61,649 nt of DNA from an uncultured Bacteroidales bacterium (GTDB lineage: Bacteria; Bacteroidota; Bacteroidia; Bacteroidales; FEN-979): the NCBI GenBank assembly GCA_903828645.1, contig CAIKNA010000067.1:1-61649 (forward strand), in the 5' to 3' direction. Below, piece after piece: positions 29,297-54,787 of the stretch; the stretch's first letter is position 1; each line of letters starts with the position of its first letter. The notes under the pieces are model-generated. The model was not told the origin of the DNA. It was given only the letters and a program-made list of their open reading frames with translations, and did no database searches. Both the position numbers and the translations under genes were made by a program.

Positions 29297-29412
29297 TTGA
29301 CGCGCCCTGATTTTACCATTTTCTTTGCTATGACATTTTGTATTCCGAGTGATCGGGAAGAGGAAGCCGAAAATCTTTAGCCAGAGTAGGCGAAATTCAA
29401 AACAGTATTCAG

Positions 29413-41436: not shown

Positions 41437-43731
41437 TTATGGTTTTGCGGGTGAATTTACAAAATACATGTCGATCTCTCCCTTGTGTTTTGCAGTCACT
41501 TTTCCCCGGTAGGTGCAATTGAACAGTTCCTTCACTTTTTCAAAGGTTGCGCCGCTGATGTTCACTTTATTGGACTCGCTGGCATTTTCCATCCGCGAGG
41601 CGGTATTCACCGTATCGCCCCAGATGTCGTAGGCGAATTTTTTTAGTCCCACGATCCCCGCTACCACCGGACCGGAATGAATCCCGATGCGAAGTTCGAA
41701 AAAAGATTCTCCCCGCTCCCTTCTCTCTTTTGCCTGGACCATCATAAACTCCTGGAATTCCAGTGCCGCAGCAACCACATCGCAGGCATGTGTTGTATTG
41801 GCGGCAGGCAACCCTCCTGCACACATATAGCTGTCGCCGATGATCTTGATCTTTTCAATGTTATGCCGGGAGATGATATTGTCGAATTCAGTGAAGTAAA
41901 AATTGATAACATCTACCAGCTCTTCCGCGCTCATTCGTTCACTGGCCTGTGTAAAATCCTTGAAGTCGGTGAACATCACCGTGACTTCGTCAAACCGTTT
42001 AGCCCTGGCCTTCCCTGTTGATTTAAGTTCCTCGGCCGTTTCATGCGGCAGGATGTTGAGCAAAAGATGGTCGGATTGTTTCTTGGCAGCATCCAGCAAA
42101 CGGTTCAGCCTTTTCTGGTTCCTGAAATTCCGGTAAACCAGCAGGGTTACGATGATGAAAAAAACCACCCCGCCGCCCAGCATTTTAACCTGGTTCTCAC
42201 CCTGCCTGATCTTTTGCCGGTTTTTTTCCGCATCGGCCTCTTTTTGCAACCGCTCCATCCTTACCGTCTCAGCCATGATCTGGTCGCTTTTTGTTTTTTT
42301 GCTGATGCTGTCGACAACCTGGAGTGTTACCGAGGCATAATGCCATGCATTTTTATAATCCCCTGCGTTTTTGTAGAGTGCTTCGAGATTTTTGGCAGCA
42401 ATCAGCATATACTCAAATCTCCCGGGATAATCATCTTTTTCGGCAACCTGGTAGGCCCTGGTAAATTTTTCAATTGCCGGCCGGTTCAGATCGTGCCGGA
42501 TTAAAAACTGGCCAAACCGGTTATAAAAATTAGACAGGTAAATAATCCCTTTGTCATTATTTTTGATCAGGAGATGCTCCGCCTGGTCAAAAAAGTAACG
42601 TGCGGAGTCTGGTTTTTTTTCAAGTTCTTTGAAGTATGCCGTAATCCTGAAATACATCTCCCGATCTGTCTGGTAGAGGTTTGCAAATTCATCCGGGTAG
42701 GACTTTTTAAAGAAGTTGTAAAGCATTGCCAGCTCGTCCGATTCGAGCAGGAATTTCCGGTAAAGACCAAATTCCCATGCTTTCAGCCTGTCGTTCCGCG
42801 TACGGATCGAATACCCTATGATACTCCTGACGCTTTGTTCAGGAAGACCGCCTTTTTTTTGACGGACCCTGATGAATTGTTTGTACAATTTAGCCCACAT
42901 CAGGGCAACTGAATCAACCGGTTTGTTGACCAGGATTATTTTAACCTCTTTGTTTTTATATTCAACAGCATCTTCGAAAAGTTTATTGTCATTGTAAAAT
43001 CTGGACAACTGGGAATAACATTTTTTGAGCAGGGTCGGGTCCCCGATATTTTCTGCCATCTCTCTCGCGACCAGGAAGTTTTTAAAAGCTTCGATCTTCT
43101 GGTTTTTATCTGCATAACTTTTACCGATAATAAGATAGCTTTCGGCAATCAGATTTCTGTCTTTTAATGCCATGGCCAATTGCAATGCTTCTTTGCTGAT
43201 TATAAGTGCGTTTGTATAGTCATATTTTGAAAGATAGACCTGTGCCAGGTTCCTGCTTGTCCGCCACTGCATGGCCAGGTTGCCGGCAATCCTGCATTTT
43301 TGCAGCGCGATGCTGGCATAATCCAGTGACTTCCTATACAGGAACGCATTGTCCGTTGATTCCAGGTAATTATTATAAGCGATTAGCAGCAGTCCCGGCT
43401 GGCGGCTCAATTCAGCAACAAGGATGGCCGCATCGCCAAGGCTGTCGGATTTGCTTTTATCTTCAAAATAGTCATTGTAAAAAAAAGCCAGCCTGGAGAG
43501 GTAAACAACCCTTGTGCTGTCATCCTGCGAATTTTTATACCTGGCCCACAATGTTTTGATGGTATCCGGCAGCTGGGACTGGGAAGAGAGTTTTGCGGGA
43601 TTGACCAGGAACAAAAGCAAGAACAGGCAAACATGAACCTGTGAACGATGCACAAGGTTTCTATTGATCCCTGCCCACTCCCGGACTGTTTTCTGCTCAT
43701 TCACGCCTGACAATTTTTTCTTATAATGCAA
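41437..43731 (-). CDS. TPR-containing class III adenylate/guanylate cyclase
   Basis: 764 residues; signal-like segment HVCLFLLLFLVNPAKLSSQ, TPR region (about 60-480), coiled coil (LQKEADAEKNRQKIRQGE), membrane helix (LGGGVVFFIIVTLLVYRNF), short HAMP-like linker and C-terminal cyclase. Metal-binding Asp residues are in MFTDFKDFTQ and IGDSYMCAGG, and the WGDTVNTASRME motif is complete. It probably makes cAMP (or cGMP) in response to a periplasmic signal sensed by the TPRs, with the same layout as the TPR kinase at 32371. It diverges from the Cys-rich gene at 43801. Confidence 0.93.
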   Translation of the reverse strand: MHYKKKLSGVNEQKTVREWAGINRNLVHRSQVHVCLFLLLFLVNPAKLSSQSQLPDTIKTLWARYKNSQDDSTRVVYLSRLAFFYNDYFEDKSKSDSLGDAAILVAELSRQPGLLLIAYNNYLESTDNAFLYRKSLDYASIALQKCRIAGNLAMQWRTSRNLAQVYLSKYDYTNALIISKEALQLAMALKDRNLIAESYLIIGKSYADKNQKIEAFKNFLVAREMAENIGDPTLLKKCYSQLSRFYNDNKLFEDAVEYKNKEVKIILVNKPVDSVALMWAKLYKQFIRVRQKKGGLPEQSVRSIIGYSIRTRNDRLKAWEFGLYRKFLLESDELAMLYNFFKKSYPDEFANLYQTDREMYFRITAYFKELEKKPDSARYFFDQAEHLLIKNNDKGIIYLSNFYNRFGQFLIRHDLNRPAIEKFTRAYQVAEKDDYPGRFEYMLIAAKNLEALYKNAGDYKNAWHYASVTLQVVDSISKKTKSDQIMAETVRMERLQKEADAEKNRQKIRQGENQVKMLGGGVVFFIIVTLLVYRNFRNQKRLNRLLDAAKKQSDHLLLNILPHETAEELKSTGKARAKRFDEVTVMFTDFKDFTQASERMSAEELVDVINFYFTEFDNIISRHNIEKIKIIGDSYMCAGGLPAANTTHACDVVAAALEFQEFMMVQAKERRERGESFFELRIGIHSGPVVAGIVGLKKFAYDIWGDTVNTASRMENASESNKVNISGATFEKVKELFNCTYRGKVTAKHKGEIDMYFVNSPAKP

Positions 43732-43800: not shown

Positions 43801-44268
43801 ATGAAAAATAAACCTTTTTTACTTGCATTTACCTTTATTGCCGGAGCAATCATCGGAGCTGCAATTTTCTGGATGATCTGTAACTATTGCTGTCATAAGA
43901 CCTCCTGCCAGAAGAGCTGCTGTGAAAAGCATTGTGCCATGGTCCCGGATACCTCGGGAATTCGCCAGATCGATGTTCCAACGGCAAACGGTTATTTCAG
44001 GGCTTATCTTAAAGCGCCTAAAGGCGTTGATACCCTCAAGGCATTTACCATCAACCTCGAACAGTTCAATGCAATGAAAGTTATTGCAAGGGAAGATACT
44101 TCAGTTCATGGCTTCAGAATCTACATGGGGCTGGATATAAAAACTCCGATCCGGATGGTGGTAGGTACAGGGAGCCCGGATAAAACCAAAAAAATCATTG
44201 TTACCAGTGATGTGAATTCGGGAGCCTGTCCGGACATCTGCGATAAATCAAGCCCGATCATGCAATAA
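43801..44268 (+). CDS. Membrane-anchored Cys/His-rich protein of unknown function
   Basis: 155 residues. One helix (about 8-26) is directly followed by a ligand cluster: C27, C30, C31, H32, C36, C40, C41, H44 and C45. The remaining domain (IRQIDVPTANGYFRAYLKAPKG) is beta-rich and ends with ACPDICDKSS (two more Cys). Seven Cys and two His within 19 residues suggest a metal site or disulfide knot just outside the membrane. No family recognised. A TATATTTA box lies about 40 nt upstream; the gene diverges from the cyclase and converges on two universal stress protein genes. Confidence 0.8.
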   Translation: MKNKPFLLAFTFIAGAIIGAAIFWMICNYCCHKTSCQKSCCEKHCAMVPDTSGIRQIDVPTANGYFRAYLKAPKGVDTLKAFTINLEQFNAMKVIAREDTSVHGFRIYMGLDIKTPIRMVVGTGSPDKTKKIIVTSDVNSGACPDICDKSSPIMQ

Positions 44269-44295: not shown

Positions 44296-45153
44296 TTATG
44301 CGGAGGCGTTTTCCTGATCAATGAACATCACCGGAACCTGGGCCGGGTTAAACATCAGCCGTTCGTTCCATGTTGAAAAGCTGACTCCTGAAGCATCCGG
44401 TTCCGGAAGAGTGGTGGTCATGATCATATCCGCCCTGTTTTCGATTGCATAAGCAATTACCTGGTTTGAAAAATCATTAATGGTTGCTGCCGTATTAATT
44501 GTGCAGGCTGTTTTCTGTTCCTGAAAGACCCGGGTCATCTGCAGTGTGATTCCTGCAAGGAGATGATTCCTTTCGGGGTTTATTTCCAGCGCCTGGAACA
44601 AATGGATTTCCGAGTTGAACAGTTTGTTAAAAAGCAATGCCCACCTGATCAGGCAACGGGGTTCCAACTCCCCGGTTACAGGCAGCAAAACACGCCTGTA
44701 TCCTTCTCCGAAAAAGCGTTCCTGGACGATCAGCACCGGGCAGGCGGCGTCAAGCACGACCCGCAGGGCATGACTGCCGAACAAATGCTGCAGTCCCTGC
44801 TTTCCATGGGTCCCCATGACCATCATCGCCGGACTGACCTCTGCCGCCACTTTATTGACAACCTTAAAGAGGTTGCCCTCCCTGATCAGCGGGTCTATCT
44901 TTACCGCATATTTTTGTTCCCACTTCTCCTTGCATTGCAACAGATCCCGGCGGCTGTTTTGATTTGCCTCCTCCTCCTTATTATATATGGTACCTGGAAT
45001 TATGCCCTGCACATGCAGCAGACAAACCCGGTAATGAAGCCGCCGGGCAAACTCAAGAGCATGAACAACAGCATTTTCTGCAACCACAGAAAAATCTGTA
45101 GGCACGAGGATTGCTTTGTCAACCCTGTTCAACTTTTTTACCTGGTTGGTCAT
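44296..45153 (-). CDS. Tandem-domain universal stress protein
   Basis: 285 residues, two UspA folds. The first domain has AILVPTDFSVVAENAV and the ATP-type loop VMGTHGKQGLQHLFGSHALRVV (G-2x-G-9x-G-S/T form). The second (RRVLLPVTGEL to VMFIDQ) lacks the loop. It follows the homologous gene at 45190 by 36 nt. Cytoplasmic stress-survival protein by family. Confidence 0.9.
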   Translation of the reverse strand: MTNQVKKLNRVDKAILVPTDFSVVAENAVVHALEFARRLHYRVCLLHVQGIIPGTIYNKEEEANQNSRRDLLQCKEKWEQKYAVKIDPLIREGNLFKVVNKVAAEVSPAMMVMGTHGKQGLQHLFGSHALRVVLDAACPVLIVQERFFGEGYRRVLLPVTGELEPRCLIRWALLFNKLFNSEIHLFQALEINPERNHLLAGITLQMTRVFQEQKTACTINTAATINDFSNQVIAYAIENRADMIMTTTLPEPDASGVSFSTWNERLMFNPAQVPVMFIDQENASA

Positions 45154-45189
45154 GAAATGATGATTAGCCCTCCGCTCATTCTGTTAAAG

Positions 45190-46002
45190 CTATGCTCCGT
45201 CACCTCCTCCGGCACACAATACCGGGATCTGGTGTTCGTTCAGCAGCATGACCTCTTTATAGGGCTTTGCCAAAAAGGGATACTCCTCTGACGCAACAGA
45301 CATCATCCAGATGGCATCAGCCCCGATTGAATGAGCATACTTCAATGTTTGCAAGGCATATCCCTGTGAAAAACCTTCCTGCTCCTCTTTTATCCTGACC
45401 ATCCGCACACCCTGGTCTTCAAGCCTCCGGGTGGATTCACTGATGTTGGCCAGCATTTGTTTAGTCCATTCAAACCCCGGTTTATGTATGGAATAAAAGT
45501 GTACTTCCGGGTCATAGATGGCTGCAAAAAGCAATATTGCATCAACTGCCTGCTGAAAATTATCATGCCCCCCTACGGGAAGGACAATCCTGCTGAATGA
45601 TTCAACCACCGGGGCGCCTTCCTGCACAACCAGCAGCGGGATCGGAACTTTAGCCACCAGTTTGAGCATATCGGTTCCAAACAGTTTTTGCCTGATGCCG
45701 CTGTAGCCATGCGTTCCAATGACCATGAGATCAAAATCCTTTTCCATCACCGTTTGAGGGATTATATCAAAAGGCTTTCCCTCTTTTACCAGCACTTCAC
45801 ATGCTATTCCGGAGTTTTGCCGGATCTTTTCGGCTTCGGTGTTCAATCTTTCCCCGGCATCGTATGCCAATTCTGATTTACCATCAATTACATGCAACAG
45901 GGTCAGGGAGGATCCTGCTTTCATGGAAATGACAATGGCCTGGCTGAGAGCCTGGTCTGCGGCTTTGGTAAAATCGGTGGGAACGATAATTTTATTTTTC
46001 AT
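45190..46002 (-). CDS. Tandem-domain universal stress protein
   Basis: 270 residues; KIIVPTDFTKAADQALSQA and VIGTHGYSGIRQKLFGTDMLKLV in the first domain, with a degenerate second domain (RIVLPVGGHDNF). It is the first gene of the pair and has a near-ideal promoter: TTG 46061-46059, 19-nt spacer, TATTTTTG 46039-46032 (minus strand). Confidence 0.92.
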   Translation of the reverse strand: MKNKIIVPTDFTKAADQALSQAIVISMKAGSSLTLLHVIDGKSELAYDAGERLNTEAEKIRQNSGIACEVLVKEGKPFDIIPQTVMEKDFDLMVIGTHGYSGIRQKLFGTDMLKLVAKVPIPLLVVQEGAPVVESFSRIVLPVGGHDNFQQAVDAILLFAAIYDPEVHFYSIHKPGFEWTKQMLANISESTRRLEDQGVRMVRIKEEQEGFSQGYALQTLKYAHSIGADAIWMMSVASEEYPFLAKPYKEVMLLNEHQIPVLCAGGGDGA

Positions 46003-46031
46003 GAGTTGAGAAATGAGCTGTTAACTTACTT

Positions 46032-46061
46032 CAAAAATATAAAATTAACACCAATCATCAA
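46032..46061 (-). promoter_or_regulatory. Promoter of the two universal stress protein genes
   Basis: TTG, 19-nt spacer, TATTTTTG on the minus strand; leader of about 25 nt to ATG 46002. Confidence 0.75.
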
Positions 46062-46111
46062 CACGTCTGAAATATTAATTGGTTCTCCGTACCGGGATTA
46101 CCGCAATGGTC

Positions 46112-46127
46112 TGCGTAAAAATACGCA
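46112..46127. promoter_or_regulatory. Dyad TGCGTA-AAAA-TACGCA, cassette A
   Basis: Perfect 6-bp arms. The same dyad stands upstream of all three paralogous small secreted protein genes (also 47539 and 52661). It starts 83 nt before the dyad-like TGTAA-tt-TTACA that overlaps the -7 box. Confidence 0.8.
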
Positions 46128-46153
46128 AGGTCGTCAGGTTAAAAAACCCAATC

Positions 46154-46206
46154 AAATCGGGCATTTCGGCGCTTGATTCCACCCTGCGCCACGGTGTAAT
46201 TTTACA
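46154..46206 (+). promoter_or_regulatory. Conserved upstream block and promoter, cassette A
   Basis: A block starting AAATCGGGCATTTCGG runs into the -33 TTG (46173-46175), followed by a 21-nt spacer and TAATTTTA (46197-46204), a TAnnTTTG variant. The same arrangement with the same spacer length is at 47612-47654 and 52724-52776. Confidence 0.8.
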
Positions 46207-46248
46207 TCATTAAAAAACAGCAATACTAACCCCAAAAAAAACAAAACA

Positions 46249-46680
46249 ATGAAAACAACAAAGATTTTCTCGGTTCTCAGTCTCGCACTGATTTTAGCAG
46301 CGGTAACTTCAGTTTTTTCCGCAACCATCGGTACAAAAAACGATCCAACCGTTAACCCTGTCATCCGGTATCATGTCAACATCCAGTTAACACTTGAAAA
46401 ACCGCTCTGCAACATCTGGCTGGTCAAGATCCTTGACGAGAATGGCAGGATGGTCGCTCCCGCAAAACCTTATATTCCGGGAGTGGTAGGTTACGACTTT
46501 TATGAAAAAGGCCCGGTAAAAGGTTCAAGGATAGCTGTACTGGTAAAATACAAGGGCGGAGACCACTATGTTTGCGAAACTGAACTCTTTACAGCGCCAG
46601 CCATCATTACCGGTCAATTTTTCAACGGCGAAACCTATCGCTTTGAACTCGCCCCGACCACGCTGGTGCCAAAGCCGTAA
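46249..46680 (+). CDS. Small secreted protein, paralogue A of three
   Basis: 143 residues; signal peptide (IFSVLSLALILAAVTSVFSA). The mature ~120 residues are beta-rich, with LVKILDENGRMVAPAKPYIPG, YDFYEKGPVKGSRIAVLV, CETELFTAPAIITGQFFNGETYRFEL. It shares the whole pattern with 47693 and more distantly 52814: same start MKTTK, ILDxxGRxVAPAxxYxPGVxxYDFYExG, and a final YRFEL/YRYEL strand. One Cys pair (LCNIW and VCETE) may form a disulfide. Family not recognised. Upstream elements and terminator are also shared, so the three genes form one regulated set. Confidence 0.8.
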   Translation: MKTTKIFSVLSLALILAAVTSVFSATIGTKNDPTVNPVIRYHVNIQLTLEKPLCNIWLVKILDENGRMVAPAKPYIPGVVGYDFYEKGPVKGSRIAVLVKYKGGDHYVCETELFTAPAIITGQFFNGETYRFELAPTTLVPKP

Positions 46681-46720
46681 GGTTCAGGAGAGATCCTGCT
46701 TATCAGCAGGAAACTGAAAA

Positions 46721-46752
46721 ACCGTCCCGGGGTACCGGGGCGGTTTTTTTTT
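46721..46752 (+). terminator. Rho-independent terminator, cassette A
   Basis: 10-bp stem ACCGTCCCGG/CCGGGGCGGT with loop GGTA, then nine T. The T-tract touches the stop of the convergent regulator gene. Confidence 0.9.
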
Positions 46753-47392
46753 ACATGATCACCAGTTTGTTGCGCAGTGCGAAAATAACCAGGTTGATCA
46801 CATTGGCGGAGCCTGTTTTCTGGAGAAGCTTATTCCTGTATCCCTCCACAGTACGCACGCTGAGAAATATTTTTTCTGCAATTTCATTGTTTGACAGCCC
46901 CTTGCATAACCAGCGCAGCACCTCCATCTCCTTGTCGCTGAAAGATATTTTTTCAACCGCATCGATCTGCCTGACTTTCTTGACCAGTAACCCCATGATC
47001 TCCTCCGAGTAATATTGCTGCCCGTCGGATACCCTGTTGATGGCCTTTTCAAAATCGGGGAGACCGGAAGTTTTTAAAATAAACCCATAAACCCCCTTTT
47101 CGACCATGGAATAAACATATTCCTCTTCGCCGAACATGCTTATCACGAGGATTTTCAGAGAAGGATCATACTTGAGGGCCTTTTCAGTGGCTTCAAGCCC
47201 GTCCATCACCGGCATCTGGATATCCATCAGCACAATATCCGGGGTAACTTTCTTCAGTTTTTCCAGGAAAATCGCCCCGTTCTCCGCTTCGCCAACCAGT
47301 TCCACGTCATCCATTTCACCAATCACCCTTTTCAGCCCTTCCCTGAAAACAGCATGATCTTCAACGATAAAAACCCTCTTTTTCTTTGTCAT
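46751..47392 (-). CDS. NarL/LuxR-type response regulator, no adjacent kinase
   Basis: 213 residues. Receiver with E11-D12 and D57 (VLMDIQMPVMDGLEA), then a LuxR HTH (FSDKEMEVLRWLCKGLSNNEIAEKIFLS to INLVIFALRNKLVIM). It lies between cassettes A and B of the small secreted paralogues and diverges from B; the TGCGTA-type dyad of B lies 147 nt from its start. The nearest histidine kinase gene (HisKA_3, PAS) is at 49716-51074. A likely promoter is TTG, 20-nt spacer, TATCTTTC on the minus strand near 47500. Candidate regulator of the three cassettes (inference). Confidence 0.92.
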   Translation of the reverse strand: MTKKKRVFIVEDHAVFREGLKRVIGEMDDVELVGEAENGAIFLEKLKKVTPDIVLMDIQMPVMDGLEATEKALKYDPSLKILVISMFGEEEYVYSMVEKGVYGFILKTSGLPDFEKAINRVSDGQQYYSEEIMGLLVKKVRQIDAVEKISFSDKEMEVLRWLCKGLSNNEIAEKIFLSVRTVEGYRNKLLQKTGSANVINLVIFALRNKLVIM

Positions 47393-47538
47393 TTGCCGCG
47401 ACTTTTTTCAACAAATAAAACCGCTACCGGTTCATTAGAATGCATGTTAACGATACCGGCATGCATCATGTTAAATGAGCCGAAAGATACACCTAATAAT
47501 TTTTTTTTGCAACAGCAACACCTGTTTTATTTGTTGCT

Positions 47539-47554
47539 TACGTAAAAATACGCA
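47539..47554. promoter_or_regulatory. Dyad TACGTA-AAAA-TACGCA, cassette B
   Basis: Same element as at 46112 with one changed base in the left arm; starts 104 nt before TGTAA-tt-TTACA (47643-47654). A second, weaker copy (ACGTAAAATACGC) lies at about 47585-47597. Confidence 0.75.
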
Positions 47555-47611
47555 GGATAATGTTGGGTAGGTACTTGCCATCAAACGTAAAATACGCTGT
47601 AAAATCAGGCA

Positions 47612-47654
47612 TTTCAGCGCTTGATTTGACCATGCCGGCCGGTGTAATTTTACA
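47612..47654 (+). promoter_or_regulatory. Conserved block and promoter, cassette B
   Basis: Block with AATCAGGCATTTCAGCGC leading into TTG (47621-47623), 21-nt spacer, TAATTTTA (47645-47652); leader about 35 nt. Confidence 0.8.
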
Positions 47655-47692
47655 TCATCAAACACAAACAAATAACCCTAAAAAACAAAACC

Positions 47693-48127
47693 ATGAAAAC
47701 AACAAAATTTTTCTCAGCCCTCAGCTTCGCAATGATCTTTAGCGCCGCAACATTCGCTGCAACCATCGGCGGTGTTACAAAAAATGACCCGATCTCCATC
47801 AACCCGGTGGTCAACCATCATGTAAATGTTAACTTGACAATCGATAAAAGAATATGCAACTGGTACCTTGTTGAAATTCTTGACGGCCAGGGACGCCTGG
47901 TGGCTCCTGCCAAGAACTATGTGCCGGGTGTGTCGGCATATGATTTTTACGAACGGGGTCCTGCTTCCGGAGTCAGGATTGCCGTTTTGGTACTTGCTCC
48001 CATGAACAGCCATTTTATTTGTGAAACAGAGTTGTTTACCGCCCCGGCGATGATCTCCGGAAAATTTCTGCCCGGCCAGACCTATCGTTATGAACTGAAC
48101 CCGCAATCACAACCTTTCAAGCAATAA
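47693..48127 (+). CDS. Small secreted protein, paralogue B of three
   Basis: 144 residues; signal peptide (FFSALSFAMIFSAATFA). Closest paralogue of A: ATIGGVTKNDP, ICNWYLVEILDGQGRLVAPAKNYVPG, YDFYERGPASGVRIAVLVL, CETELFTAPAMISGKFLPGQTYRYEL. The two Cys of A are conserved. It diverges from the NarL-type regulator at 46751 and is followed by its own terminator and then an S41 protease gene. Confidence 0.8.
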   Translation: MKTTKFFSALSFAMIFSAATFAATIGGVTKNDPISINPVVNHHVNVNLTIDKRICNWYLVEILDGQGRLVAPAKNYVPGVSAYDFYERGPASGVRIAVLVLAPMNSHFICETELFTAPAMISGKFLPGQTYRYELNPQSQPFKQ

Positions 48128-48161
48128 CCATCCCGGACCTTTTAAAACCAAAGGAAGTAAA

Positions 48162-48189
48162 AGCCGCCCCGTAAGGGCGGTTTTTCTTT
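48162..48189 (+). terminator. Rho-independent terminator, cassette B
   Basis: Stem AGCCGCCC/GGGCGGTT with loop CGTAA, extended by A-T pairs, followed by TTTTTCTTTTT. Confidence 0.85.
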
Positions 48190-48199
48190 TTACATGTAT

Positions 48200-48207
48200 T
48201 ATATTTG
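48200..48207 (+). promoter_or_regulatory. -7 box TATATTTG of the S41 gene
   Basis: Exact TAnnTTTG, 20 nt before ATG 48228, directly after the cassette B terminator, so the protease gene has its own promoter. No clear -33. Confidence 0.6.
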
Positions 48208-48227
48208 TAGCAACCAAACGGACGATT

Positions 48228-49712
48228 ATGAAATCAAAACTATTATCGACCATTTTGGGATGCACTCTTTTTTTCATGGCGCATGCTCAAAACACTCCCT
48301 GCCTGACCGATTTTAATTACCTGGTCAAAAAAATCAGGACCGATTATCCCGGCTACCGTGACAAGGTTACGAAAAACACTGAAACGGATCTTGTTGCGCT
48401 GGAATCAAAACTGCGAAATAAGATCGCCGAACATCCCGATTCGTGCGGGAGGTACCTGAGAACTTATGTTGACTGGTTTAAGGACAACCATTTAGCTGTC
48501 AGACGCCTCTGGCAGGAGAACCAATCCGCGGCGGACCATCAGAAAGAGCCGGTGCGGCAGTTCATCCCACTGAACAACGATGCCATCTCCGGATTGGGCA
48601 GGAAAAAAGAGACCATCGAAGGCATCTGGGTTTCTTTCAGGGGTAAAATTGCCGTTGCAAAAAAAGCCGGCGAAGATAAATATTCCGGCATCGTCATCCG
48701 GTTCGACGGGTATGAACCGGGCCAGGTCATTTTTGAATTTATCCCCGGAAAGGGGAAGGAGTTTTCGGTGAAAAGCTACCCGGTCTACAACAATTTCGAA
48801 CCGGTTGACGGCATTGCCTCCCTCCTGATGGAGGATAACATTTTCGAAATTCATGATGACAACAACCGGTTTGTGCGCCAGTCGGCCTCACCCGCATTTG
48901 ACAAAGCGCTGCTATACTCCTATCAGCCTCAGTACCCCAATGGATCAAACATATATCCCATGGCTGCCTATTTGAATGACAGCACCTACTATCTCCGGAT
49001 CACCAGTTTTGCCGATGACATGACGGAGAAACTGATCAAACCTCACTGGAAGGAGATCATGGCCAGGCCCAACCTGATTATCGATATTAGGCACAATGGC
49101 GGGGGCCAGGATGAGTATTACCAGCTGCTGTTGTCGCTCATCTACACAACTCCCTATTTAAGCAAAGGGGTGGAGTGGTATGCCAGTGAAGGAAACATAG
49201 CCAATTTTGAGCAGGCGCTGAAGACAGGGGATGTGAGAAACGGGGAAGAGGGTGTCAAATGGATAAACTCCCTGCTTGCGGTCATGAAGAAAAACGTGGG
49301 AGGGTTCGTCGTTCATCCCATGATGGGAAGTGATGCGACTGTAAAAGAAGATACGGTTTATCCCACTCCGAAACGGGTCGGGATCATCATCGATGAGGGA
49401 AATGGCTCATCGGCCGAGCAGTTTATCCTGGACGCCAAAGAGAGTAAAAAGGTGATCCTGTTTGGCAACCATAATACGGCAGGGGTTCTTGATTATTCGA
49501 ATTGTATAAGTGAGGATTTCCCATCCGGGAAATATGAACTTCAGTGGCCGATGACCAGGTCACGCAGGCTTCCCGAACACCCCATTGACAATATCGGCAT
49601 CGCCCCGGATGTTGTGATTCCATATCCCGAAGCGAAACAACTCTTCGACAGGCTGGATGAGTGGGTCTATTTCGTGAAAAGCTACCTCGAACAACAGGGT
49701 TCTGACAATTGA
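48228..49712 (+). CDS. Secreted S41-family peptidase-like protein
   Basis: 494 residues; signal peptide (LLSTILGCTLFFMAHAQ). No PDZ is obvious. S41 core: LIIDIRHNGGGQDEYYQLL, nucleophile Ser395 in EGNGSSAEQFIL. The Lys of the usual Ser-Lys dyad is not seen; the matching segment reads LFGNHNTAGVLDY. This is typical of an S41 subgroup in Bacteroidota; activity uncertain. The last strand has NIGIAPDVVIPYPE as in active S41 enzymes. It converges on the PAS kinase gene with a 3-nt gap. Confidence 0.85.
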   Translation: MKSKLLSTILGCTLFFMAHAQNTPCLTDFNYLVKKIRTDYPGYRDKVTKNTETDLVALESKLRNKIAEHPDSCGRYLRTYVDWFKDNHLAVRRLWQENQSAADHQKEPVRQFIPLNNDAISGLGRKKETIEGIWVSFRGKIAVAKKAGEDKYSGIVIRFDGYEPGQVIFEFIPGKGKEFSVKSYPVYNNFEPVDGIASLLMEDNIFEIHDDNNRFVRQSASPAFDKALLYSYQPQYPNGSNIYPMAAYLNDSTYYLRITSFADDMTEKLIKPHWKEIMARPNLIIDIRHNGGGQDEYYQLLLSLIYTTPYLSKGVEWYASEGNIANFEQALKTGDVRNGEEGVKWINSLLAVMKKNVGGFVVHPMMGSDATVKEDTVYPTPKRVGIIIDEGNGSSAEQFILDAKESKKVILFGNHNTAGVLDYSNCISEDFPSGKYELQWPMTRSRRLPEHPIDNIGIAPDVVIPYPEAKQLFDRLDEWVYFVKSYLEQQGSDN

Positions 49713-49715
49713 TGG

Positions 49716-51074
49716 TTATAACTGTTTGGTGATTCTTACCTCCGTTTTTCCTTTCCTGATCAGGAACTGAATTTTTGCGTCGATGAGGTTCACGCGATGG
49801 ATGATGTTGCCGATACCCATCCCTCCCGGTTTGGTATTGATCTGCGAGACATCATACCCCTTGCCGTTGTCGGTATAGTTCAGCGTAAGCGCACCGTTCG
49901 CATATTTCAATTTCACCGTGGCGCAGGTTGCTCCGGCATGTTTGACGGTGTTGTTGATCAGTTCGCAGATGATCCGGTAAAAATGCAGCTCGGTTTGTTT
50001 CTGGAATCGACGCCCCTTCAGGTTCGAGATCAGGCTGATGGAGAAGATCCCCTCCTGCTGCATGGTGCCGGCAAAAGAGTTCAGGGCCGCTTCAAGTCCG
50101 AAATTTTCAATGAGACGGGGCATCAGGTTGTTGGCAACGATCCTCATTTTTGCAATGGCTTCCGCCAGTTGCCGGTGGCAAATGTCCAGGGTTTCTGCAA
50201 ACTTTTCAGGTGTTTTTGAATGTCCCAGCATCCCCAGGTGCAACTTGATACTCGAAAGTGTGGGGCCGAGGTCGTCGTGCAGGTCGGCTGCAAATTGCTT
50301 GCGGTTTTTTTCTTCGGTTTCGATCACCCGGCTCAGGACATATTTCTCCAGGTGCTTTCTTTCTGTGATGTCGATCAGGATGGTCATCACCGCATCCTGC
50401 CCCTTGTATTTGAGTTTGCTGTTACGCAACAGGAAATTCCGGATCACAACCTTCCTGTTTTCTGTCCTGATCTCAAATTCTTCCTCCTCAACAAATGAAT
50501 CGCCGGTGAGGTTTCTGAAAACAGCCATGTTTTTAGGATCGGCGGGGTCGGTTAAGAGATCGGCAACATTTTTCCCGATGATCTCATCCTTGTTAAAACC
50601 GGTAATTCCGAGGATCAGGTCATTTGCAAAAACCACCTTCCCGTCGATATGGATCAGGATCGGATTGGGGAGCTGGTTGACCAGGGTCCGGTACAGCACC
50701 TCACTTTCGCGCAGAGACTCTTCTGCCTGTTTGTTTTCAGTGAGATCTTTCAGCGTGTATACATCAAGATCGCGGTTTTCAAACGATGCGGTAATCCTTG
50801 AAACAAGGAAAGGGTTGATCATCCCGCTGCGGTTGCTGATATGTATTTCGCGGTTGTCGGCACTTCCCGTTATTCCCTTGAAAAGGAGACTCACCTCCGG
50901 TGAAAAGACAACGTCGATGTGCATGCCCGCCACGTCGCAGCCCGGCAGTGCCACCAGGTCGCAGAAAGCCTGGTTTGCCAGCACAAAACACTTTTTTTTA
51001 TCCAGGGCGAATATCGGGTTTGGGATTGAATTAAAAATCGCGGGAAGAAATCCGGGCTCCTTGATCGCTTTCAT
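49716..51074 (-). CDS. PAS-domain histidine kinase (HisKA_3)
   Basis: 452 residues from ATG 51074 (MKAIKEPGFL). A longer frame from 51197 adds 41 residues with no domain. Two PAS domains (about 10-120 and 130-250: NPIFALDKKKCFVLANQAFCDL, NPILIHIDGKVVFANDLI), HisKA_3 with His266 (ADLHDDLGPTLSS) and HATPase_c (NNTVKHAGATCATVKLK, DNGKGYD, GGMGIGNI). No membrane helix, so it senses a cytoplasmic signal or cofactor. It has no adjacent regulator gene; the NarL-type regulator at 46751 is the nearest candidate partner. Confidence 0.9.
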   Translation of the reverse strand: MKAIKEPGFLPAIFNSIPNPIFALDKKKCFVLANQAFCDLVALPGCDVAGMHIDVVFSPEVSLLFKGITGSADNREIHISNRSGMINPFLVSRITASFENRDLDVYTLKDLTENKQAEESLRESEVLYRTLVNQLPNPILIHIDGKVVFANDLILGITGFNKDEIIGKNVADLLTDPADPKNMAVFRNLTGDSFVEEEEFEIRTENRKVVIRNFLLRNSKLKYKGQDAVMTILIDITERKHLEKYVLSRVIETEEKNRKQFAADLHDDLGPTLSSIKLHLGMLGHSKTPEKFAETLDICHRQLAEAIAKMRIVANNLMPRLIENFGLEAALNSFAGTMQQEGIFSISLISNLKGRRFQKQTELHFYRIICELINNTVKHAGATCATVKLKYANGALTLNYTDNGKGYDVSQINTKPGGMGIGNIIHRVNLIDAKIQFLIRKGKTEVRITKQL

Positions 51075-51202
51075 GGGTGTGATGTTGCGTTGAATTTCCC
51101 TGCAAATTACAAAAAAAGAGGAATTAGCCTCTTTTTTCCTGGTCTCGGAAATTTGGTTTATTTTTACAGGCTGAGCTCCTGACATCAGAATAATCAAACA
51201 AT

Positions 51203-51952
51203 ATGAAAGAAAAATCGATCATCCTGTTTTTAACATTTGCGATGGCCTGCCAGTTGTATGGACAAAAAAACGATTTGAAACGGCTCGGGATCAACGGCAA
51301 CGTCAAGTCGATCCATGAAAATTCCTACCAGCCTGAGGAGAAAGGCGGGAAAACAGTGAACGGCGACCCTGAGTTTTCCTATTACAACACCTTCAACAAA
51401 TCGGGGAATAAAGTTGATGATATCAAGTACACCGCCAATGGAAAAACCGACAAGAAATATGTGTACAAATATGACAGCCTGGGCAGAAGGATTGAACAGA
51501 ACCAATTGTCGGCTGACGGAAGCCTGACCAGGAAAATCACCTATACCTATGATGAAAAGGGTCGCCTGGCAGAGGATAACAGTTTTGGTGCCGATGGAAA
51601 ATTTGAAAAGAAATTCACCTATACCTACGACAACCTGGGAAATGTTGTGGAAGACAAGAGTTTTGACGCCGGCAACGCGCTGTTGAAACGATTTACCTAT
51701 AAATATGACCGGGCAGGAAACAAAATTGAAAATGACCGGTACACCTCACAGGGTACGCTTGAGAAAACAGTAATTTACGGCTATGATAATAAGAGGAATG
51801 TAACCGAAGAGGTCTCGACCTCTCCCGACGGAAGCAAGATCACTTATACCTGGGTTTATGAATATGATCAGCAGGATAACTGGACCCGGAAGATAAAATA
51901 TTTTGAAAAAAAGGCGCAAAACATCCTTGAAAGAAAGATCGAATATTATTGA
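51203..51952 (+). CDS. Secreted YD-repeat-like protein
   Basis: 249 residues; signal peptide (SIILFLTFAMACQLYGQ). Seven to eight tandem ~21-residue units with YxYDxxGNxxE-type motifs (YTYDEKGRLAEDNSF, YTYDNLGNVVEDKSF, YKYDRAGNKIENDRY), as in RHS/YD proteins. No toxin or RHS core is present, so it is a short stand-alone repeat protein, possibly carbohydrate-binding or structural. Confidence 0.85.
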   Translation: MKEKSIILFLTFAMACQLYGQKNDLKRLGINGNVKSIHENSYQPEEKGGKTVNGDPEFSYYNTFNKSGNKVDDIKYTANGKTDKKYVYKYDSLGRRIEQNQLSADGSLTRKITYTYDEKGRLAEDNSFGADGKFEKKFTYTYDNLGNVVEDKSFDAGNALLKRFTYKYDRAGNKIENDRYTSQGTLEKTVIYGYDNKRNVTEEVSTSPDGSKITYTWVYEYDQQDNWTRKIKYFEKKAQNILERKIEYY

Positions 51953-51980
51953 TGATCAACAACCATTCAGAAATACAACC

Positions 51981-52442
51981 ATGAATCCAGCTCATTTGCA
52001 TCTTGTTTTTACCCATTTGCCCATCGTAGGCCTTGGCTTTGCAATCATCCTGAACGGCATTGCACTCTTCAGAAAAAGTGAAGAACTTCAAAAGCTTACC
52101 CTCTGGTGCTACCTGCTTTTAGGAATTTTCGTCCTGCTTGCCTACATGACGGGGGATGACGCCGGAAAACTCATGCAAACCTATCCCGGCATTACGGAAG
52201 ATGTGATAGAACCCCATGAAAATGCTGCGATGTTTTTCCTGATCGGCCTGCTGGCCACCTCCGCCTTGTCGATGGTCGGGTTGTATATGACAAAAACCCG
52301 GAAGGAGTTGCTGAAAAAGTTCACCCTCTCACTTCTCATCGGGGCTATCCTGGTGAGCGTTCTTGCAGTGATGACCGGTTCCACCGGCGGATCGATCCGC
52401 CACACTGAAATCAGGCAGGGGGAGTATAAAAAGGTGAACTGA
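51981..52442 (+). CDS. Four-span membrane protein (DUF2231-like)
   Basis: 153 residues from ATG 51981 (MNPAHLHLVFTHLPIVGLG); the longer frame overlaps the YD gene by 50 nt. Four helices with conserved polar residues: H in FTHLPI, DD in MTGDDAG, H in IEPHENAA. Together these suggest a cofactor or metal site between helices, as in DUF2231/cytochrome-like membrane proteins. Function unknown. Confidence 0.75.
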   Translation: MNPAHLHLVFTHLPIVGLGFAIILNGIALFRKSEELQKLTLWCYLLLGIFVLLAYMTGDDAGKLMQTYPGITEDVIEPHENAAMFFLIGLLATSALSMVGLYMTKTRKELLKKFTLSLLIGAILVSVLAVMTGSTGGSIRHTEIRQGEYKKVN

Positions 52443-52458
52443 TTTTATACCTTTTTAG
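52427..52458 (+). terminator. AT-rich hairpin at the end of the DUF2231-like gene
   Basis: Perfect arms TAAAAAGGT/ACCTTTTTA with a 14-nt loop that contains the stop codon. The arm itself supplies a T-run; it could terminate in both directions. Confidence 0.55.
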
Positions 52459-52660
52459 TCCTGTTTGATAATTTTTGCTGATTATTCAATTTGATCAGCT
52501 TCGCGGCCGAAAGCCTCTCAGGGATATCTTTTTGCTTAGAAATTGCCTATTTATTTGCAGCGATGGCACCGGGAAGCACCGAGATTCTCTGTTTTCTTCA
52601 CCGGGTATGGTAAACAGACAAGCTGCCGTTAAATGAGAACAGGTACTACATAGAAATCAT

Positions 52661-52676
52661 TGCGTAAAACTACGCA
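52661..52676. promoter_or_regulatory. Dyad TGCGTA-AAAC-TACGCA, cassette C
   Basis: Perfect 6-bp arms, as in cassette A; starts 104 nt before TGTAA-tt-TTACA (52765-52776), the same distance as in cassette B. Confidence 0.8.
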
Positions 52677-52723
52677 GCAAAACGCATCCTTTTACGTTGA
52701 ATTTATGGTTTGAATACGCAGTG

Positions 52724-52776
52724 AAATCGGGTATTACAGCTCTTGATTCCCCCCTGCAAACGGGTGTAATTTTACA
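52724..52776 (+). promoter_or_regulatory. Conserved block and promoter, cassette C
   Basis: AAATCGGGTATTACAGC block into TTG (52743-52745), 21-nt spacer, TAATTTTA (52767-52774); leader about 35 nt. Confidence 0.8.
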
Positions 52777-52813
52777 TCATTAAAATATACACCAACCTCA
52801 AAAACAAAAAACC

Positions 52814-53257
52814 ATGAAAACAACAAAATTTATCATCGCATTCAGTCTCGCACTGATCTTCTCAGCAGGGTTTAACGCTTTGTATGCCGGACAGCATGCA
52901 AAAAAAGATGTTCCAAGCGACACCAAAGCAGCAATGGTTGCCTATGTAGTAAGGATTAACAACCTGAACTACCTCGGGGAAAACGGCAACCGTTTTCTCA
53001 TTATGATGACCGATGAAACCGGTCGTTTGATTGCACCTGCCCAGACTTTTCAGCCGGGTGTGTCGGATTACACTTTTTTTGAAGGCGGAACGGTGCGCGG
53101 CACCAGGGTTGCAAAAATGATGAAGCTCCCAATCGGGCCAAAATCCTTTTATATTCCCCCGACATCCCATAGCGGCGTCTTTTACGTGGGAGCCTGCTAC
53201 CTGTTCATCATCAACCCCATCACCGCCGAGAGCGACGCCAGGGTTGTCATCCAGTAA
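52814..53257 (+). CDS. Small secreted protein, paralogue C of three
   Basis: 147 residues; signal peptide (FIIAFSLALIFSAGFNALYAG). It shares MKTTK, the MTDETGRLIAPAQTFQPGVSDYTFFEGG pattern and the closing beta-strand with A and B, but lacks the AxxxxxELFTAPA block and one Cys. The regulatory region is as well conserved as in A and B although the protein has diverged more, which suggests selection for joint control. Confidence 0.75.
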   Translation: MKTTKFIIAFSLALIFSAGFNALYAGQHAKKDVPSDTKAAMVAYVVRINNLNYLGENGNRFLIMMTDETGRLIAPAQTFQPGVSDYTFFEGGTVRGTRVAKMMKLPIGPKSFYIPPTSHSGVFYVGACYLFIINPITAESDARVVIQ

Positions 53258-53288
53258 GCAGAAGCGCTGATACCGGCCATCTTCTAAA

Positions 53289-53319
53289 ACCGTCCCGTAC
53301 AACCGGGGCGGTTTTTTTT
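53289..53319 (+). terminator. Rho-independent terminator, cassette C
   Basis: 9-bp stem ACCGTCCCG/CGGGGCGGT, loop TACAAC, eight T. The arms are nearly the same as in the cassette A terminator, showing that the terminator duplicated with the gene. Confidence 0.9.
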
Positions 53320-53341
53320 ATTTACGGGACTACCGGTAAGG

Positions 53342-54787
53342 CTATGGTTCTATCCACAGCACCGAATTCCCGGTTCCGTATTCATTTTCTTCCCAGAGTT
53401 CGTTGGATGGATCGCGGATCCATTTATTGTCGACAATAAATTTATAGGTGTACTTTCCCGGTTTGAGGAAGACAGGAAACCACCACGTTCCCTGGCGAAG
53501 CTCCATCCGGTAACCGGTGGTACTCCAGTTGTTGAAACTCCCTGAAACGATGGCCTTGTCGGCATCTGAATGCTGCTCCAGCCTGAACCAGTAATCGGGT
53601 TTCACGACAAGATAGGAATTGATGACGTCGCCCTCACCCACCGTATACGGGTTGGCCGGGTCGGTAATCCATTTACCATCGACAATAAACTTGTATTCAT
53701 AGCTTCCCATGGCAAGCACATAGGGAAGCTGCCAGCCTCCGTGGGTTTTGTTCATCGATAATTCCTCCTTGTTCCAGTCGTTAAAGTTCCCGCTGACCAC
53801 CACCTTCTCCGCCTTGGGAAATCCTTTCAGGGTGAAAAAGAGGGTATCGCCGATGCCGAGGAAGGAATTTTCATGACCCCTGCCGTCGGGCCTCGTAACC
53901 TTATTCGCAGGATCGGTGATCCATTGCCCGTCGACGATAAACTTATAAGCATAGGTTCCTTCCCTTAGGTATAACGGCAACAACCAATTGCCGTGGAACC
54001 TGATCATTCGCAGCTCCTTCTCCTTCCACTGGTTGAAAGTGCCTGCTACAAACACCTGGTGTGCGCCGGGAAAACCGTTCAGGACGAATTTATAATTGTA
54101 GCAGAAAAAGATGTTGTTGTATCCCTGCTGGTTGTTATCTTCGCGCAGCTTGTTGTATGAATCGTTGACCCACTTCCCGTCGATGACGAACCTATAGAAA
54201 TACTTCCCCTCCTTCAGGTTCAGGCTCACGGTCCAGCCGGAGTCACACGGCTGCATTGGGGTTTGAAGCGTGCTCCAGGCGTTGAATGATCCCGAGAGAA
54301 AGACCTTTTTCGCATTTTTTTGCCCGGGAAGGAAAAACCGCATCCAGCCGCCGGAAAGTTGCACGATGGTGTTCCGGGTAAGGCGGTTTACGCCATAAGT
54401 TACCGACTCCCTGTCCGGCGCTGAATTTTTTTTGATCCATTTGTCATCCAGCAGGAAAATCTTTTCCTTCGAATCCTCCCTGCCGGCAGATTTGCGTGGT
54501 TCCATGGAAAGTTCAATGCGCTGTGCGTCGAGCCTGCGGGTTTTCCATATTTTTCCACTGTCATTGATCGTTGGTTTTAATGCGAATGCACCGGAAAGGA
54601 GGGCGCTGTCGAGGTCGAACATCCGGGAGATCTCCCTGCGCTGCGAAGCGCTCCAACGCAGATCGAGCGTGAAGATGAGGCGGCCCTCTTCCACCCGGCA
54701 AACTTTTTTCGGGTCAAACTGGGCATGGGCCACGGAGGCCGTAACCAGCAAAATCAGCAATAAGACCGATGCAGTGCGTGCTCTCAT
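53342..54787 (-). CDS. Secreted protein with four glycogen-binding-like (CBM48/AMPK) modules
   Basis: 481 residues; signal peptide (SVLLLILLVTASVAHAQ). After an N-terminal region (about 25-145) there are four tandem ~80-residue modules, each with VFLSGSFNAWS-type, G.W...L.L..G.Y.YKFIVDG.WI.DP and N-S/end strands. This is the AMPK-beta/CBM48 pattern with the conserved W and K. No catalytic domain is present. Likely binds alpha-glucans or serves as a scaffold. The start overlaps the end of the upstream retropepsin-like gene (4 nt), so they are coupled. Confidence 0.88.
   Translation of the reverse strand: MRARTASVLLLILLVTASVAHAQFDPKKVCRVEEGRLIFTLDLRWSASQRREISRMFDLDSALLSGAFALKPTINDSGKIWKTRRLDAQRIELSMEPRKSAGREDSKEKIFLLDDKWIKKNSAPDRESVTYGVNRLTRNTIVQLSGGWMRFFLPGQKNAKKVFLSGSFNAWSTLQTPMQPCDSGWTVSLNLKEGKYFYRFVIDGKWVNDSYNKLREDNNQQGYNNIFFCYNYKFVLNGFPGAHQVFVAGTFNQWKEKELRMIRFHGNWLLPLYLREGTYAYKFIVDGQWITDPANKVTRPDGRGHENSFLGIGDTLFFTLKGFPKAEKVVVSGNFNDWNKEELSMNKTHGGWQLPYVLAMGSYEYKFIVDGKWITDPANPYTVGEGDVINSYLVVKPDYWFRLEQHSDADKAIVSGSFNNWSTTGYRMELRQGTWWFPVFLKPGKYTYKFIVDNKWIRDPSNELWEENEYGTGNSVLWIEP

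Follow-up and report, generated by a model that had tools for sequence, protein, structure and literature searches.

A candidate two-component regulon of small, predicted secreted proteins with phased dyads in an uncultured Bacteroidales bacterium

The stretch of DNA analysed here, termed the window, is contig CAIKNA010000067.1 (C67, 61,649 nucleotides) of an uncultured Bacteroidales bacterium. Three monocistronic cassettes in the window, with genes at 46249 (A), 47693 (B) and 52814 (C), share a 16-bp dyad, a 23-nt block that ends in CTTGA, a 21-nt spacer and a -7 box. We consider it likely that a PAS/HisKA_3 kinase and a NarL-type regulator activate the sigma-ABfr promoters of these small, predicted secreted beta-sandwich proteins through phased dyads; it is the binding, the activation, the signal and the task of the proteins that we infer.

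Genomes and searches

The draft genome of the window comprises 5.10 Mb in 409 contigs with 4.57% contamination. The relatives that bear names (eight loci) are metagenome bins of uncultured Bacteroidales or Bacteroidetes, and Lake Pavin bins account for four of these loci. The cassette protein family was searched for in 149 genomes including the window's own, and 18 of them matched at E <= 0.01. The matches in G106 and G128 were marginal and were lost on iteration. The iterated search of the stretches around the matches gave 57 family open reading frames (ORFs) in 16 genomes; two family fragments (G036 C155 and G002 C65:129853) lie outside these 57 ORFs.

A stretch in a relative counted as the block if it stood at the expected position and differed from it in no more than 8 of 23 letters. 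Profile R1 is a sequence-only profile of 62 nt that runs from the block through the -7 box. Its source was the 38 block promoters (of 41) whose spacer is 21 nt; the other three were excluded. It was run on 46 genomes, 28 of which are family genomes. The 15 further family genomes (of 43), which the profile did not cover, were searched for the block solely upstream of family genes. The mismatches of the dyad were counted over 12 positions, and terminators were identified with our own scan for a hairpin followed by a T-run.

Promoter anatomy of the cassettes

The order of elements in each cassette is the dyad, the block AAATCRGGYATTNCRGCKCTTGA, TTG-N21-TA, an A-rich leader and a private terminator (Table 1). 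An earlier note on this DNA had described three related secreted-protein genes with common control elements, and all of the elements that it listed are present in the sequence. TTG-N21-TA is exact in A, B and C, which agrees with the 21-nt spacer it gave. The dyad, which was described as identical in all three cassettes, is perfect in A and C and imperfect in B. It was also placed 80-110 nt upstream of TTG; the distance from the start of the dyad to TTG is 82 nt in B and C and only 61 nt in A. The control regions are 77% (A-B) and 74% (A-C) identical over 84 nt. The proteins are 61% (A-B) and 37% (A-C) identical, and protein C has indeed diverged more than its control region, as the note had stated.

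TTG, TA and TTT are invariant in the 38 aligned promoters. TTG-N21-TA occurs in 38 of the 41 block promoters, and N19 or N20 in the other three. The promoters have the -33 TTG, the -7 TAnnTTT and the usual spacing that are expected of sigma-ABfr promoters, for which the published consensus is TTG/TAnnTTTG (PMC7366714, PMC6847099).

Two shared elements of the cassettes were rejected as specific signals. The palindrome TGTAATTTTACA (TGTAA-tt-TTACA) was present in all three cassettes as claimed. It is perfect in just 20 of the 41 family block promoters, where the other copies read TGTATCTTTACA, CGTACCTTTACA and similar; because of this distribution the palindrome appears to be mainly the -7 box rather than a separate operator. 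The terminators are present in the cassettes and are ordinary, since their arms vary across the 57 homologs; a hairpin with a T-run was found for 47 of them and none in the scan for the other 10. An RNA leader or riboswitch in the control regions was also rejected. The whole window was searched against Rfam, and no family reached its gathering score within 45500-54200; four sub-threshold matches were seen at E <= 1, none of them over a block.

Specificity of the block and the dyad

Profile R1 matched the three cassettes in the 5.1 Mb genome with E values of 1.8e-16 (A), 6.1e-18 (B) and 3.4e-15 (C), and the next-best match was a partial promoter match with an E value of 0.0017. The block itself was found at two places in the genome at <=3 mismatches (A and B; C is more divergent), with 0 in the control. 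The block regulon of this genome, as far as the profile sees, appears to consist of the three cassettes, and the proposal of a real and specific regulon of predicted secreted proteins is upheld.

The dyad with an A-tract (TGCGTAAAANTACGCA, <=1 mismatch) has exactly three sites in the genome, all of them in the cassettes (control 0), and perfect dyads occur only twice, both within cassettes (A and C). The bare dyad alone is weak evidence and proves nothing. The window holds three sites at <=2 mismatches, where 1.24 are expected, and at least as many arise in 10 of 100 shuffles. The whole genome holds six places at <=1 mismatch (the three cassettes and three elsewhere), and the reversed-pattern control also gave six. 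The earlier note had named a random spread of the dyad across the genome as a refuting outcome; the perfect and the A-tract copies are confined to the cassettes.

Block promoters in relatives and the ladder of dyad sites

The block is present in 41 of the 57 family ORFs, 89-95 nt before the start codon. It precedes 41 of the 44 family ORFs in the 12 regulator-positive genomes and 0 of the 13 in the four genomes without the regulator, which belong to genus g3 (G020, G030, G033 and G036). One of these 13, G020 L073 5421, is without the block at its correct start too. Upstream of twelve of the 13 ORFs (L073-L080) a TCCGCA-like box lies near -156, and for 11 ORFs another stands near -74, which is an apparent replacement of the regulatory system.

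The dyad-like sites in the 41 promoters start 19, 40-42, 63-65 or 86-87 nt before the block, with a mean step of ~22.5 bp. These ladder slots cover 16 of 115 positions. The sites that lie on the ladder are 25 of 25 at <=2 mismatches, 38 of 39 at <=3 and 58 of 62 at <=4, and a scan of the entire upstream stretch at <=4 mismatches lists 63 sites. Dinucleotide shuffles average 0.2, 1.9 and 13.9 sites in all at the same three thresholds. Every promoter has at least one on-ladder site at <=4 mismatches: one in 27 promoters, two in 11 and three in 3.

The 14 strong profile matches that do not precede family genes served as a held-out set, where the dyad lies outside the profile. All 11 sites at <=2 mismatches in this set are on the ladder (slot 19 six times, slot 42 four times and slot 64 once), as are 12 of 13 at <=3 mismatches.

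The 12 regulator-positive genomes hold 24 A-tract dyads (reversed control 4), of which 21 lie 19, 41-42 or 63-64 nt from a block, as worked out by hand. The other three are elsewhere (G016 C323, G026 C207 and G026 C227). A-tract dyads number 0 in the 10 regulator-negative genomes of the window's genus (control 5), 2 in the other six negative family genomes (control 0) and 5 in the 18 non-family genomes (control 13).

The regulator and the kinase

The protein at 46751 matches Response_reg (1.8e-24) and GerE (2.6e-14), and the Asp of its MDIQMP-type motif is conserved in 7 of 7 aligned regulators; with its receiver, GerE domain and phospho-acceptor Asp it is a NarL/FixJ-type response regulator. 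The protein at 49716 matches HisKA_3 (3.8e-10) and HATPase_c (1.7e-6) and has two PAS stretches and an ADLHDDLG box in its translation, which together make it a HisKA_3 sensor kinase with its H-box. On the Kyte-Doolittle scale, every 19-residue segment of the kinase scores 1.5 or less. Because no stretch is hydrophobic enough for a membrane segment, the kinase is probably soluble and would perceive an internal signal via its PAS domains.

The regulator had been taken as partnerless and the kinase as regulatorless, and this does not hold, since the two adjoin in relatives. They lie within ~90 nt of each other in G011, G019 and G026, they are consecutive on one strand with a gap of ~250-390 nt in G002 and G017, and in G027 the regulator overlaps a partial kinase at the end of a contig. 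This adjacency extends to other genera. Cassette B and an S41 peptidase gene separate the two in the window, and a cassette lies between them in the same way in G001, G012, G013, G016 and G018. Both genes are syntenic in the eight other regulator-positive genomes of the genus, where the regulator is 87-94% and the kinase 69-79% identical. Regulator orthologs (73-94% identical) are found in 12 of the 28 family genomes including the window's, and the kinase in the same 12; the best regulator match in the 15 further family genomes is 48%. The 12 regulator-positive genomes (of 43) are exactly those with the block on family cassettes. The nearby NarL-type regulator is the best candidate for the activator. 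The adjacency and the shared distribution indicate that the regulator and the kinase are a cognate two-component pair.

A more distant regulator (60%) and kinase (54%) occur in G022, a genome in which neither a family member nor a full-length block match was found. G013 holds a second regulator-kinase pair (L129, C5:331948-333973) with identities of 69% and 38% to the window's pair, and the 9-kb stretch with this second pair holds no dyad at <=2 mismatches. The dyad TGCGTAGAAATACGCC lies directly upstream of the regulator gene in G002 (L050:8771-8786), which suggests autoregulation there.

Other targets of the block promoter

Profile R1 gave 54 matches at E <= 1e-5 in the 46 genomes, all in regulator-positive genomes; 40 of them precede family genes and 14 do not. 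Six of the 14 precede LAPxTPxEAxFE-repeat proteins of ~120-140 aa, five precede a ~160-aa family with a signal-like N-terminus, and one precedes a 508-aa protein that is outer-membrane-like by eye. Two block promoters have no close gene: no ORF of at least 80 aa lies within 500 nt at L128, and only an AraC-type regulator ORF lies 360 nt downstream at L121. Seven of the 12 non-family target proteins were scanned, and no Pfam or NCBIfam match was found at E <= 0.01; the LAPxTP proteins scanned were those of L115, L116, L118 and L127. The LAPxTP loci in relatives are these four together with L120, L122 and L134. At the seventh gene, L134 (G001 C162), slot 19 carries a perfect dyad and the block match is weak (E 0.10).

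The window's genome has LAPxTP genes at four places (Table 1), and neither block nor dyad was found upstream of the three that were tested (all except that on C208). A search of this genome for the ~160-aa secreted family, made without a positive control, gave no match. The regulon in relatives appears to extend past the cassette protein family to other small secreted proteins.

The predicted secreted proteins

Proteins A, B and C (143-147 aa) are the only family members found in the window's genome, and none of them matched a Pfam or NCBIfam family above chance. Their N-termini are hydrophobic by hydropathy and by eye, on which the prediction of secretion is based, and no lipobox Cys was seen. 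The mature part has two cysteines in A and in B and one in C. The alignment of the mature proteins has no invariant or nearly invariant Lys, and therefore an isopeptide bond is unlikely.

Structure prediction, which the earlier note had proposed for all three proteins, was run for mature B. AlphaFold2 on 16 relatives gave an eight-stranded beta-sandwich with a mean pLDDT of 88 and a pTM of 0.80. Foldseek found no match to this model in the PDB at E <= 0.001. The best rows were pilus-adhesin and CnaB2 domains and a Bacteroides DUF4876 protein, with a query TM of 0.35-0.52 in the first four rows and of at most 0.53 among the best 50. The sequence search of the PDB for the family gave nothing below an E value of 0.77, and in BFVD a 454-aa viral protein without a name matched at E 1.9e-4, all other matches being weak. 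An identity as a phage or defence family was rejected, as 16 members had no match in PHROGs or PADLOC at E <= 0.01.

A, B and C belong to separate ortholog groups, with support of 95/80 for B, 97/89 for C and a weaker 88/92 for A. The likeness of their promoters is therefore more likely to have been kept by selection than to stem from recent copying.

Features of the cluster and its neighbourhood

The coordinates of the cluster and of the genes beside it are listed in Table 1. A 481-aa protein with four AMPK1_CBM (glycogen-binding) stretches adjoins cassette C at 53342-54787 (-). Elsewhere in the window, a DUF805b cis-regulatory RNA (Rfam RF02914) scores above its gathering score at 29357-29392 (+), directly upstream of ORF 29413.

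Table 1. Positions of the cassette elements, the signalling genes and neighbouring or related genes. Positions are those of the window unless another contig is named.
Feature	Position	Strand	Remark
Cassette A dyad TGCGTAAAAATACGCA	46112..46127	+	perfect TGCGTAN4TACGCA; ladder slot 42
Cassette A conserved block	46154..46176	+	ends CTTGA; -33 TTG at 46173
Cassette A -7 region GGTGTAATTTTACATCA	46193..46209	+	
Protein A	46249..46680	+	143 aa, predicted secreted
Cassette A intrinsic terminator	46718..46751	+	
NarL/FixJ-type response regulator	46751..47392	-	Response_reg + GerE
Cassette B dyad TACGTAAAAATACGCA	47539..47554	+	slot 63; between divergent regulator gene and B; one mismatch (TACGTA)
Cassette B second site AACGTAAAATACGCTG	47583..47598	+	one base shorter; slot 19; read by eye
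Cassette B conserved block	47602..47624	+	-33 TTG at 47621
Cassette B -7 region	47641..47657	+	
Protein B	47693..48127	+	144 aa, predicted secreted beta-sandwich
Cassette B intrinsic terminator	48160..48190	+	ends approximate
Sensor kinase PAS-PAS-HisKA_3-HATPase	49716..51074	-	start 51074 by homology; mechanical ORF extends to 51197
Cassette C dyad TGCGTAAAACTACGCA	52661..52676	+	perfect TGCGTAN4TACGCA; slot 63
Cassette C degenerate site	52705..52720	+	slot 19; right half-site TACGCA
Cassette C conserved block	52724..52746	+	-33 TTG at 52743
Cassette C -7 region	52763..52779	+	
Protein C	52814..53257	+	147 aa, predicted secreted
Cassette C intrinsic terminator	53286..53319	+	
Guanylate_cyc (PF00211)/TPR protein	41437-43731	-	adjoins cluster
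Small protein and two Usp (PF00582) genes	43801-44268 (+), 44296-46002 (-)		beside cluster
LAPxTP genes of the window's genome	C265:20373-20735, C16:46239-46592, C127:68071-68385, C208:13331-13489		4 places

Discussion

What we observed is the build of the promoters and its specificity, the ladder, the pairing of the kinase with the regulator, and the co-occurrence of these two genes with the block. The mechanism that we propose is as follows. The kinase, probably soluble, would sense a signal that is most likely intracellular and phosphorylate the 46751 regulator, and a dimer of the regulator would bind the 16-bp dyad TGCGTA-A-tract-TACGCA. The one to three recognisable sites of a promoter stand on slots that repeat every ~22.5 bp, roughly two helical turns, and the bound dimers would line up towards RNA polymerase. 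The slot centres lie ~30 bp before the -33 TTG for the nearest slot and then ~53, 75 and 98 bp before it; such upstream positions are usual for activators. The 23-nt block runs into the -33 box and is likely to include one more contact: a degenerate regulator site may occupy the next slot, or the polymerase may touch the DNA over a longer stretch. The next step of the ladder falls on the block, which may be a degenerate last site, and its letters point weakly that way. Transcription would proceed from the sigma-ABfr promoter TTG-N21-TAnnTTTA and end at the private terminator. Each cassette would give a single small protein, made up of a signal-like segment at the N-terminus and an Ig/CnaB-like beta-sandwich, which is probably exported to the periplasm or out of the cell.

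Several points weigh against activation by this regulator through these dyads. Three family ORFs in regulator-positive genomes are without the block; one is the second of a tandem pair (G018), and two are unexplained (G027 L059 and G019 L069). G011, G019 and G027 are regulator-positive, yet only degenerate dyads and no strict A-tract dyad were found in them. The ladder slots were derived from the same 41 promoters on which they were tested, a circularity that does not affect the held-out set. In the held-out promoters, five sites at <=4 mismatches are off the ladder, as is one with three mismatches, and the genes are partly orthologs of each other, so the 11 sites amount to fewer than 11 independent events. 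Each step of the 22.5-bp repeat takes the sites a further ~50 degrees out of helical phase. The cluster was inherited as a whole, the neighbouring cyclase included, and therefore most of the co-occurrence alone is no proof that the regulator binds the dyad. The 10 negative genomes of the window's genus are without regulator, kinase, cyclase and family alike, and co-occurrence there cannot single out the binder. The genomes that do separate these genes are G020 and, in the case of the regulator, also G030, G033 and G036; the discriminating set consists of four g3 genomes with the family and without the regulator versus one genome (G027) with both.

The cyclase is an argument for another binder of the dyad array, for example a Crp/Fnr-type regulator together with the cyclase or a second LuxR-type regulator, the two-component pair being linked only genetically. 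The Guanylate_cyc gene and the two Usp genes adjoin the cluster, and more NarL-type regulators are read from the translations in the window. In the 28 family genomes covered by the cyclase search (G028-G042 lie outside it), the cyclase is found in 13 (E <= 1e-120), namely the 12 regulator-positive genomes and G020. The secreted family occurs in these 13 and in no others of the 28. The cyclase stands directly before the regulator and the kinase in G026. However, G020 has the cyclase and the family but neither the regulator nor the block, so the cyclase appears to track the family and the regulator to track the block. Moreover, a dyad lies between the regulator gene and a divergent cassette in the window, G001, G012 and G018; in G013 and G016 the dyad at this place is degenerate. 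We regard another binder as unlikely. Repression by the same regulator, or activation and repression through the array with relief by phosphorylation, is distinctly unlikely, as the ladder sites, from scans that in relatives covered DNA upstream of the -7 box, lie upstream of the -33 box at positions that are typical of activators. In its favour is the example of NarL, which represses one promoter and activates others (PMC4549865).

It is very improbable that recent duplication accounts for the shared control regions and that these are strong housekeeping promoters with no special regulation. The proteins are paralogous, the -33 and -7 boxes are those expected for the primary sigma factor, and the A-rich leaders point to strong translation, all of which this explanation would accommodate. 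However, control regions that are 74-77% alike belong to genes of separate ortholog groups, and the family members of the four regulator-negative genomes have no block. The block and the ladder also precede unrelated genes in relatives, and these held-out promoters largely refute the duplication explanation.

Activation by the two-component pair through the ladder thus remains our preferred explanation. It would link, from sequence alone, a regulator-kinase pair to a probable binding site, a promoter geometry and a target set in an uncultivated Bacteroidales lineage; the regulator sites described for this phylum are, to our knowledge, few. The strict ladder would offer a natural series of promoters, with the nearest good site at 19, 41, 64 or 87 nt, for a NarL-type activator and the unusual sigma-ABfr polymerase. 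Three families of small secreted proteins would be tied to one signal. A further idea, which is doubtful at present, is that the regulon builds an extracellular coat or matrix from CnaB-like single-domain proteins and LAPxTPxEAxFE-repeat proteins. The two-turn ladder would tune the output of its promoters by the number and position of sites, the 18-nt block would be a second, independent recognition element, and the cyclase would add a second messenger.

In the papers searched, neither the letters of the dyad and the block nor words for Bacteroidota LuxR-type regulators and their sites led to an account of the regulon. The regulon is specific and well bounded. Its parts are ordinary (a NarL-type regulator, a HisKA_3 kinase and a sigma-ABfr promoter), whereas its promoter geometry and targets are unusual. 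The cassette proteins resemble the CnaB/prealbumin-like domains of pilus and adhesin subunits weakly, in the predicted fold class of the mature protein; unlike these, the cassette protein is a single small domain without lipobox, and no sequence relation was found. The regulator and the kinase belong to the same superfamilies as MctR/MctS, which gave the best NCBIfam equivalog scores for the pair; at 146 bits versus a cut-off of 300 and 90 bits versus 700, they are not members. The promoters share the -33 TTG and the -7 TAnnTTT boxes with the sigma-ABfr promoters of Bacteroidota and differ from them in ~18 nt conserved directly upstream of -33, which are found at no other place in the genome.

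A close parallel in design is NarX/NarQ-NarL of E. coli, which is similar in the domain make-up of both proteins, in a 16-bp inverted-repeat site and in several sites upstream of a promoter. The NarL site consists of inverted TACYYMT heptamers with a 2-bp gap. NarL dimers also bind 16-bp inverted sites, and an engineered 7-2-7 site is TACCCCTAAAGGGGTA with TAC at the outer ends (PMC4549865). The dyad was rejected as a NarL 7-2-7 site: the length of 16 bp is equal, but the letters and the polarity differ, with TAC inside here (TGCGTA....TACGCA). In contrast to the NarX/NarQ-NarL system, the kinase here has no membrane-like segment, the targets are small secreted proteins rather than respiration genes, and the sites follow one fixed ladder.

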